64,000 nt of DNA, taken from assembly GCF_002095475.1 (NCBI RefSeq), contig NZ_MLFR01000023.1:1-64000 (forward strand), in the 5' to 3' direction. Position numbers and translations under genes: made by a program. The stretch is from Pantoea rwandensis. Its GTDB lineage: Bacteria > Pseudomonadota > Gammaproteobacteria > Enterobacterales > Enterobacteriaceae. Position 1 is the first letter of the stretch, and each line of letters begins with the position of its first letter. The notes beneath the pieces were generated by a model. The model had not been told where the DNA came from and made no database searches. It saw nothing but the letters and a program-made list of their open reading frames with translations. Shown piece after piece: positions 29,458 through 30,919 of this stretch.

Positions 29458-29715
29458 TGCGCAATAAATTACGTAATGCCACTCACTTAAGCCAATGAGT
29501 GCGTATTTAGCCCGGTACGCATGAATGCGCACCCTACGAAAATCGTACCGAACAATGTAAGGGCGTCATTAATCGTACCGAACAATGTAAGGGCGTCATT
29601 AATCGTACCGAACAATGTAAGGTTGTCAGTAACCGCACCGAGTAATGTAGGGGCGCCATTCATGGCGACCGAAACGCACTTAATTGATAAGCATTACGCA
29701 ATAAATTACGCCGCT
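29458..29715. repeat. Dispersed repeat element, copy 1, with four 30-bp tandem units
   Basis: The core holds four 30-bp units in exact register: 29541-29570 and 29571-29600 are identical, 29601-29630 and 29631-29660 diverge. Unit shape is AAYCGNACCGAACAATGTARG then GNCGTCATT. The left flank has an inverted repeat CACTCA...TGAGTG (29480-29501) and the near-perfect hairpin GGTACGCAT/GA/ATGCGCACC (29515-29534). The right flank ends GCATTACGCAATAAATTACG, which is the reverse of the left end in part. The whole element is matched by copy 2 at 41729-41988. It fills the gap between the convergent DUF3750 and yodC-like genes. Confidence 0.85.
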
Positions 29716-29769: not shown

Positions 29770-29949
29770 TCAGCAGACGCCGAAATCACCTTCTTCGTGA
29801 TACAAGGTGACGCTATCCGCTCTGACTTCAATTTCGCGCTTGATGTGGTCATCGATGCGCGCGCACCACAGCAATTCACCTTCCACCCGCGTGACCTGCA
29901 TCTTCGGACCACCGGTTTTCGACTGCACGATATCATCAATTTTAAACAT
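29770..29949 (-). CDS. Small YodC-like (DUF2158) protein
   Basis: 59 residues. It reads from the ATG at 29949 (MFKIDDIVQSKTGGPKMQVT) to a TGA at 29770. The pattern IGDxVxxKTGGPxMxV, followed by a Trp-Cys and a C-terminal acidic stretch, is that of YodC-family proteins (E. coli YodC, 60 aa), whose function is unknown. GAAGAAAAAG precedes the start. The residues KREIEVRADSVTLYH continue the family's second beta hairpin. It is a single gene, convergent with the repeat element, and upstream of a 218-bp gap before the HicA-like gene. Confidence 0.75.
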   Translation of the reverse strand: MFKIDDIVQSKTGGPKMQVTRVEGELLWCARIDDHIKREIEVRADSVTLYHEEGDFGVC

Positions 29950-30122: not shown

Positions 30123-30159
30123 GTTGTCAGTTGACAACTAAATATTCAAGGGATATGGT
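30123..30159 (+). promoter_or_regulatory. Promoter and palindromic operator of the HicA-like/HTH pair
   Basis: Perfect -35 TTGACA (30131-30136), 17 bp, -10 TATGGT (30154-30159, 4 of 6). The perfect inverted repeat GTTGTCA/GT/TGACAAC (30123-30138) covers the whole -35 box. This is the layout of an autoregulated toxin-antitoxin promoter. The expected transcription start is only a few nt from the ATG at 30168, so the message would be nearly leaderless; GGTGG (30157-30161) is the only Shine-Dalgarno-like run. Confidence 0.7.
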
Positions 30160-30167
30160 GGCATGCA

Positions 30168-30377
30168 ATGTCAGAAAGGAAGCGACACCCGCACAAAGAA
30201 ATTGAAAGTGTTCTGCGCTATGCCGAAGTACAGGGATGGAAAATTGTGCAAGGCGGGCATCATGCGTGGGGAAAAATGTATTGTCCGGAAATTCAGCAGA
30301 GTGTCGGTGTGGTGATGACTGCATTGCCTGCATCTGGAGTACGCCAAAAAGCCCTGAAAATCACGCAAGAATGTTAA
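30168..30377 (+). CDS. HicA-like small protein, putative toxin of a toxin-antitoxin pair
   Basis: 69 residues. The N-terminal half (KRHPHKEIESVLRYAEVQGWKIVQGGHHAWGKMYCP) is typical of a family of about 80-residue HicA-like (dsRBD-fold) proteins encoded before an HTH partner. His32 in GGHHAWG is at the place of the HicA catalytic His. From memory of the family, relatives continue with a cysteine-rich YND-x-CRCGEFC stretch and an IWSTP motif; here these are replaced by a short EIQQSVGVVMTALPAS segment before a recognisable end (RQKALKITQEC). So it is a shortened, divergent member. Toxicity is inferred, not shown. It leads a two-gene operon with the HTH gene 47 nt downstream. Confidence 0.65.
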   Translation: MSERKRHPHKEIESVLRYAEVQGWKIVQGGHHAWGKMYCPEIQQSVGVVMTALPASGVRQKALKITQEC

Positions 30378-30424
30378 AGCGTGTCGTAGATAACTGTTCA
30401 AGGGTTAAATGATAAGGATCAAAA

Positions 30425-30919
30425 ATGGAATTTGAATTCACGTTGCGTTTTCAGTTGAGTGAAGTGGTTTCTGATGACGAAGCCCTGGAACGACTCGGTG
30501 CTGCAGGTTGCACGGATGCGTTGGTGGGCACAGGCGTTGCCGGAAAATTCAGTCTGATGTACTGCCGGGAAGCGGGAAGTGCACAGCAAGCTATTCGCGA
30601 TGCTTTAGCCGAAGTCACCCAGGCTTTACCCGATGCTGAACTGATTGAAGCCGCCCCTGATCTGGTCGGCCTCACGGACATTGCCGAGTTGATCGGCGTG
30701 TCACGTCAAAACATGCGTAAACTCATGCTCGCTCATAGCCCGCAATTTCCGCGCCCCATCCATGATGGTAAAACCGCGCTATGGCATCTTATTGATGTGG
30801 TGGAATGGTTAAATCAACGAGGTTCTTTACGTGTGTCTCCGGGCATCAGCGAATTGGCGCGCGCAACGTTGCAACTGAATCTGCAACAAGCATTGCAACT
30901 TTACGCGCACTGTCTCTAA
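30425..30919 (+). CDS. HTH partner of the HicA-like protein, putative antitoxin/autoregulator
   Basis: 164 residues. An N-terminal region (about 1-75) with a ferredoxin-like or HicB-like pattern (EFTLRFQLSE...DDALERLGAAGCTDALVG...GKFSLMYCREAGSAQQAI) precedes an HTH (about 78-112, LVGLTDIAELIGVSRQNMRKLML). A winged-like tail with TALWHLIDVVEWL follows, and a C-terminal helix (about 142-164). This two-part build is what one expects of a protein that binds its small partner and represses the shared promoter. A clear Shine-Dalgarno AAGGA (30414-30418) precedes the ATG. It ends 2 nt before the stop of the convergent mgtE. Confidence 0.65.
   Translation: MEFEFTLRFQLSEVVSDDEALERLGAAGCTDALVGTGVAGKFSLMYCREAGSAQQAIRDALAEVTQALPDAELIEAAPDLVGLTDIAELIGVSRQNMRKLMLAHSPQFPRPIHDGKTALWHLIDVVEWLNQRGSLRVSPGISELARATLQLNLQQALQLYAHCL

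Follow-up and report, generated by a model that had tools for sequence, protein, structure and literature searches.

The locus at positions 30123-30919 of the DNA analysed here raises the question whether its two small genes form a toxin-antitoxin module, and whether that module is still complete. The window, i.e. the whole stretch under study, comprises the first 64,000 nucleotides (nt) of contig NZ_MLFR01000023.1 from Pantoea rwandensis (assembly GCF_002095475.1, forward strand). In HicAB systems the toxin gene comes first and that of the DNA-binding partner second, and an initial annotation of the window had recognised this layout in a 69-residue HicA-like protein, a 164-residue helix-turn-helix (HTH) protein and a promoter whose -35 box lies inside a palindrome. 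In the following we refer to the two genes as A and B. The toxin-antitoxin layout holds at the level of the family (two-gene order, no intact A without B, the predicted order of structural elements in A, a palindrome over the -35 box) but not for this copy, in which A is broken. Judged from sequence comparison, the locus is probably a member of the family PDC-M06, a self-repressing toxin-antitoxin-like operon that would here have decayed to its kept repressor.

The pair is already known by annotated names and by a defence-candidate label. The PDC-M06A and PDC-M06B models of PADLOC-DB 2.0.0 match the adjacent window genes (A with E 8.5e-19 over residues 3-44, B with E 4.5e-67 over residues 1-159), PDC standing for 'phage defence candidate' in the available part of PMC11514479. 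The window genes agree with this uncharacterised candidate in both genes, their order, the length of B, and A over residues 3-44; they differ in the broken frame of A, and operator and function are not stated in the sources found. A related pair is annotated HicA/HicB in the SSU5-like phage-plasmid Cyrano, according to the accessible part of its description (PMC9928086); RefSeq labels these genes 'hypothetical protein' and 'helix-turn-helix transcriptional regulator'. The function of the pair is undescribed in the literature found: searches, which did not cover preprints, returned no functional study of it and no papers on 'PDC-M06', in keeping with the earlier characterisation of the family as little described.

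Relatives were drawn from 61 genomes of the window's genus (genus set), a class-wide sample of 369 genomes, and a wider set of 80 loci, 30 from Pantoea and 50 from other genera (Cupriavidus, Pseudomonas, Achromobacter and Burkholderia among them). The 80 loci are the best 80 of 415 relatives, picked by B and hence biased towards intact B. A further set of 34 loci (14 first, 20 added afterwards) represents a distant subfamily. Loci L001-L060 and L061-L140 share genomes, and headline counts are therefore given for the 80-locus set or the genus set alone.

A palindromic operator over the promoter

The palindrome GTTGTCA-GT-TGACAAC, the predicted binding site of B, was found at 30123-30138, perfect as first described, and has no second copy anywhere in the 5.78-Mb genome. 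A perfect -35 box, TTGACA (30131-30136, + strand), lies wholly within it, 17 nt before a putative and weak -10 box (TATGGT, 30154-30159, + strand, 4/6). The pattern GTTGTCANNTGACAAC occurs in 37 of the 61 genus genomes, once in each, and the reversed control pattern in none of the 61; given the single genome copy and this empty control, the palindrome is not due to chance. It stands just before B in 36 of the 37 genomes, and in G049, which has lost B and most of A, before the remnant of A. The same place is occupied in 36 of the 39 B-carrying genus genomes, the other three (G027, G035, G046) having one mismatch each. In seven genus loci that have lost most or all of A, the palindrome is still present 63-113 nt before B, twice with one mismatch.

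The 80-locus set gave the same picture, with 66 perfect palindromes and 12 with one mismatch (78/80 at 15-16 of 16 positions); the two misses, L105 and L112, have their upstream DNA cut or masked. None of 1600 dinucleotide shuffles reached 15 of 16, and TTGACA is kept at its place in 77 of the 78 loci with an operator. B would very probably bind this palindrome and repress its own promoter. Extra operator sites controlling the integrase or att were considered and rejected, no second operator near int or att being found at 14/16 or better in the 80 loci (641 kb).

In the window the putative -10 box ends 8 nt before the start codon of A (30154-30168), and a gap of 7-12 nt between -10 box and start was counted in 55 of the 60 loci of the 80-locus set with an assigned A start, a 17-nt spacer being assumed and the -10 calls being weak. 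With so short a gap, the A message may have little or no leader.

A second operator code in a distant subfamily

Fourteen distant loci (B identity 36-46%) have no GTTGTCANNTGACAAC-type site and carry GTTGAC-N4-GTCAAC in the same place, perfect in 13; among 20 held-out distant loci it was perfect in 19, with one miss. The exceptions to the resulting 32 of 34 are L154 (12/16) and L059 (15/16), and dinucleotide shuffles attained a maximum of 15 (1/1700). The -35 box is formed by the left half of this palindrome (TTGACA in 20/33, TTGACG in 10/33) and by the right half in the window's subfamily.

The recognition helix of B differs likewise. N96, R98, K99 and M101 are present in 81 of 81 B proteins of the window's subfamily, while the distant subfamily (n=34) has A (32) or S (2) at position 96, A, T or S at 98, L or M at 99 and K at 101. 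Recognition helix and palindrome change in step, which strongly supports recognition of the palindrome by B. The Cyrano pair belongs to the homologous distant subfamily with its own palindrome, and is set apart from the window's pair by recognition helix, operator half-site and a -35 box in the left rather than the right half. Both subfamilies occur together in four genomes (G050, G130, G169 and G247); the distant copy of G247 is L154, the one without the palindrome.

Gene A is not found intact without gene B

Across the genus set, full B is present in 39 genomes and intact A in 31, and the search for co-occurring homologs that the initial annotation had called for found no intact A without B (0/31), while B lacks an intact A in 8 of the 39. 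These eight cases amount to about six losses, if the deletion edge shared by L004, L005 and L007 is counted as one event; L004 is, despite that shared edge, closest in B to the A-intact L003. Six A-only losses against no B-only loss give a one-sided sign test value of 0.016. In the class-wide sample A was found in 16 genomes (that of the window included), all with B (0/16 without), and B in 20; the four genomes that lack A comprise three with partial B matches and G631, whose B is in two pieces. Matches to the N-terminal domain of B only (profile positions 3-80 and 1-77) were seen in G526 and G559, with no A match in either genome.

Reading of the individual pieces in the 80-locus set yielded 68 intact A genes, 10 damaged or gone (L062, L064, L065, L074, L076, L095, L097, L106, L108 and L140) and two undecided (L105 and L112, cut or masked upstream); measured against this, the counts by tblastn (71/80 and 72/80) are too high, and selection by motif gave 60/80. 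The breakage is by stops in L076, L095 and L097 and by frame shifts in L106 and L140. In L076, L095 and L097 (Cupriavidus, Pseudomonas, Halotalea) the interruption is an in-frame TGA, twice within the stretch CRCGEF. No B in this set, which was picked by B, is shorter than 150 codons. B is under purifying selection also where A is lost: the ratio of nonsynonymous to synonymous substitution rates (dN/dS) is 0.06-0.12 among L004, L005, L007 and L008 (with dS >1 for the L008 pairs), and 0.09-0.10 among the A-intact L002, L003 and L006. An intact A that in the genus set never occurs without B, set beside a B that occurs without intact A in 8/39 genomes, is as expected if A alone is harmful.

The two proteins and the toxin-antitoxin reading

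Gene B is, as first annotated, an open frame of 164 codons (30425-30919, + strand). Its structure model (predicted local distance difference test, pLDDT, 90.4) has a ferredoxin-like N-terminal domain, a winged HTH at residues about 82-132 (30668-30820, + strand; recognition helix RQNMRKLM) and a C-terminal helix at residues 139-163 (30839-30913, + strand), possibly a dimer helix. The PHROG 'excisionase and transcriptional regulator' matches B with E 1.2e-19; among 46 B proteins, HTH_17 matches 30 (best E 5.7e-05) and Pfam AlpA 14, weakly (best E 0.0046), and HicB is absent from the 22 Pfam families matched (E up to 1). A structure search with the B model has no HicB among the matches listed; this says little, and the matches hardly probe the HTH part.

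Intact A has a predicted alpha-beta-beta-beta-alpha order, the order of elements in HicA, and a loop rich in cysteine and histidine that is missing from the HicA alignment made here. H32 is present in 104 of 105 distinct A proteins; these were selected by motifs with H7 and W-x-T-P, which are for that reason partly conserved by construction, whereas H32, C39, C46, C48, C52, H44, H52 and C77 are absent from the selection motifs. The HicA_toxin model PF07927 matched neither the window open reading frame (ORF; E up to 10) nor 43 A relatives (E up to 1), while it does find a HicA elsewhere in the window genome (G000:C22:28190-28348, 55.9 bits). No convincing relative of solved structure was found by sequence. 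The pair resembles the HicAB type II systems in a toxin-like gene followed by a DNA-binding partner, in the predicted order of structural elements in A and in an operator over the promoter, and departs from them in that A and B lack Pfam HicA and HicB matches, B joins a ferredoxin-like domain to a winged HTH, and A bears the C/H-rich loop.

Gene order, retention asymmetry and predicted fold taken together make a toxin role for A and an antitoxin role for B fairly probable. B dimers would then occupy the palindrome through their winged HTH, masking the -35 box and silencing their own promoter, while the ferredoxin-like domain of B would hold the HicA-fold A in check; upon a fall of B, A would be made and freed, and growth would stop. 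Several observations weigh against this reading. The two subfamilies may represent one evolutionary switch, so that the covariation of helix and operator would count as a single event, and the -10 boxes are weak in most relatives. B can decay, as in G631, a genome without A in which B lies in two pieces. Structure comparison of the A model gives HicA matches of low Z, tied with aminotransferase domains; comparing the profiles of A and HicA gives a weak result (probability 6.6%; E 0.0056 for the one pair), and the alignment pairs H31 of A, not the invariant H32, with the G-S-H histidine of HicA. Finally, Shi of ICEclc, a HicA-like protein, is not toxic alone according to the available part of its report (PMC6812849).

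Islands at guaA, defence and the role of the module

Outside Pantoea the module often lies in genomic islands. In 22 of the 50 non-Pantoea loci guaA lies no more than 4 kb upstream; an integrase match is present in 19 (four of them fragments only; L094 and L119 are among the 19) and both are present in 17, with the recurring order guaA-integrase-operator-A-B; the island integrase is a tyrosine recombinase by Pfam. As the module outside Pantoea so often sits behind the integrase of guaA islands, island maintenance is its likeliest job.

The same setting could also be read as one of island control, in which B is an AlpA-type regulator or excisionase and A a HicA-fold partner that tunes B and is not toxic by itself. 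The guaA-integrase-A-B order in 17/50 loci, the PHROG excisionase/regulator match and the weak AlpA matches of some B proteins speak for it, as do two precedents seen in the available parts of their sources. In GIsul2, which also lies at the 3' end of guaA, the gene behind int is alpA, regarded in that source as an excisionase; its overexpression helped mobilisation and its deletion changed little (PMC9376610). B shares with this AlpA the place behind an integrase at guaA and possibly an AlpA-like HTH, and differs in its extra N-terminal domain and toxin-like partner. Shi, mentioned above as not toxic alone, is likewise small and HicA-like and is encoded on an integrative element, by an operon whose first gene is alpA; it works with ParA, and a PDC-M06B-type partner is not named in the accessible part of that source (PMC6812849). 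Against such a role stand the lack of any further operator around int or att across the 80 loci, the additional ferredoxin-like domain of B, and an operator that is kept in Pantoea loci without an adjoining integrase; moreover, no case of intact A lacking B was found, and the repeated loss of A alone fits a harmful A better. We regard island control as improbable on these grounds, though the most serious competitor of the toxin-antitoxin reading.

A defence role, suggested by the PADLOC label, is possible: infection would free A, and A would abort the infection. Both PDC-M06 models match, and part of the island cargo looks defence-like (3/10), PADLOC assigning QatC (L125), a restriction-enzyme model (L086, for which Pfam shows no more than a HATPase domain) and another candidate model (L107) among ten cargo proteins; by Pfam the cargo also includes TrbI, MazG_C and a multicopper oxidase. 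However, the label denotes a candidate only, and seven of the ten proteins have no PADLOC match. In SSU5-type phage-plasmids, furthermore, the phage itself carries the pair. In Cyrano the pair is among the expressed prophage genes, with values of 30 (HicA) and 14 (HicB) against the local prophage background, according to the available part of the source (PMC9928086). The Cyrano pair has near relatives in 110 of 5426 E. coli genomes, in every case on a plasmid. Scans of viral contigs for A and for B of the window's subfamily returned one contig, and no near-identical DNA was found on plasmids. That A is lost in 8/39 genus genomes speaks against a strong benefit at present, and we consider defence an unlikely function.

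The broken copy of gene A

In the window A is, as the DNA reads, a frame-broken, decayed copy, for which a sequencing error is a possible source. With the intact 82-residue A of a relative as query, the window genome yields two pieces in two frames, residues 1-42 (98% identical) and 35-81 (85%), the frame breaking near codon 41. The 69-residue ORF of the initial annotation (30168-30377, + strand) belongs to the PDC-M06A family only to about residue 42: its last ~28 residues are out of frame, the PDC-M06A models cover only its first 41-48 residues, and it has no Pfam HicA match. The conserved second part of A lies in another frame at 30269-30409 (+ strand), within an ORF at 30236-30412, and no intact A is present in the window. 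Among the six closest genus relatives (B 91-95% identical), A is continuous in L002, L003 and L006 (82 residues; 86 in L002, from an earlier start) and mostly lost in L004, L005 and L007. A programmed frameshift was rejected as unlikely, because intact relatives carry A as one open frame.

An assembly or sequencing error, with the pair intact in the living strain, has some appeal, since single frame changes are frequent among errors and the sequence comes from a single assembly, no second genome of the same species having been found (B dS at least 0.70 to each of L002-L008). Yet A is shortened or gone in seven other genus genomes, so that loss is usual here, and the genome has ratings of 100% for completeness and 1.26% for contamination; an error is therefore an unlikely cause. 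That the 69-residue protein itself is a working HicA-like toxin, as initially proposed, is very improbable, for although its first 42 residues include the conserved helix and the GGHHAWG stretch, intact relatives reach 81-97 residues and conserve a third strand, a second helix and C77, which it lacks. Because A is broken here, expressing this ORF would test the wrong protein, and the window copy would probably give a false negative in a toxin test.

Genomic neighbourhood

In Pantoea the gene order is guaA-DUF3750-DUF2158-A-B-mgtE, and MgtE, DUF2158 and DUF3750 surround the pair in 29 of the 30 genus loci L001-L030; the DUF2158 protein, which is small and which the genus conserves next to the pair, lies at 29770-29949 (- strand) in the window. 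The initial annotation had placed the pair in an accessory patch next to a repeat element. The repeat is there, as a 30-bp tandem array of four copies of AATCGTACCGAACAATGTAAGGGCGTCATT at 29541-29660, but the locus is common to the genus and almost always flanked alike. The core of AATCGTACCGAACAATGTAAGGGCGTCATT recurs, with two mismatches, at nine other places of the genome. No integrase adjoins the pair, its neighbours being guaA, DUF3750, DUF2158 and mgtE; integrases were not looked for in the remainder of the window. A repeat of the guaA 3' end marking an island end within the window was rejected, since only guaA's own copy was found at up to 3 mismatches.

Implications

The family would count as a toxin-antitoxin variant whose operator is unusually clear, and the window holds a decayed member of it: in this Pantoea, with A frame-broken, B and its operator appear to survive as an autorepressor. 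More tentatively, PDC-M06 might be a separate kind of toxin-antitoxin system, in which a ferredoxin-like domain, joined to an AlpA-like repressor, restrains a HicA-fold A with a metal-binding C/H loop. The GTTGTC and GTTGAC half-sites might then serve as two operator codes insulated from each other and let two copies share one cell, as in the four genomes with both subfamilies, and B might outlive A as an immunity or regulatory gene. A catalogued but unstudied pair, linked here to guaA-site islands and SSU5-type phage-plasmids, thereby gains a testable regulatory model, in which the operator is exact, its reader is predicted, and two subfamilies differ in step in recognition helix and half-site.
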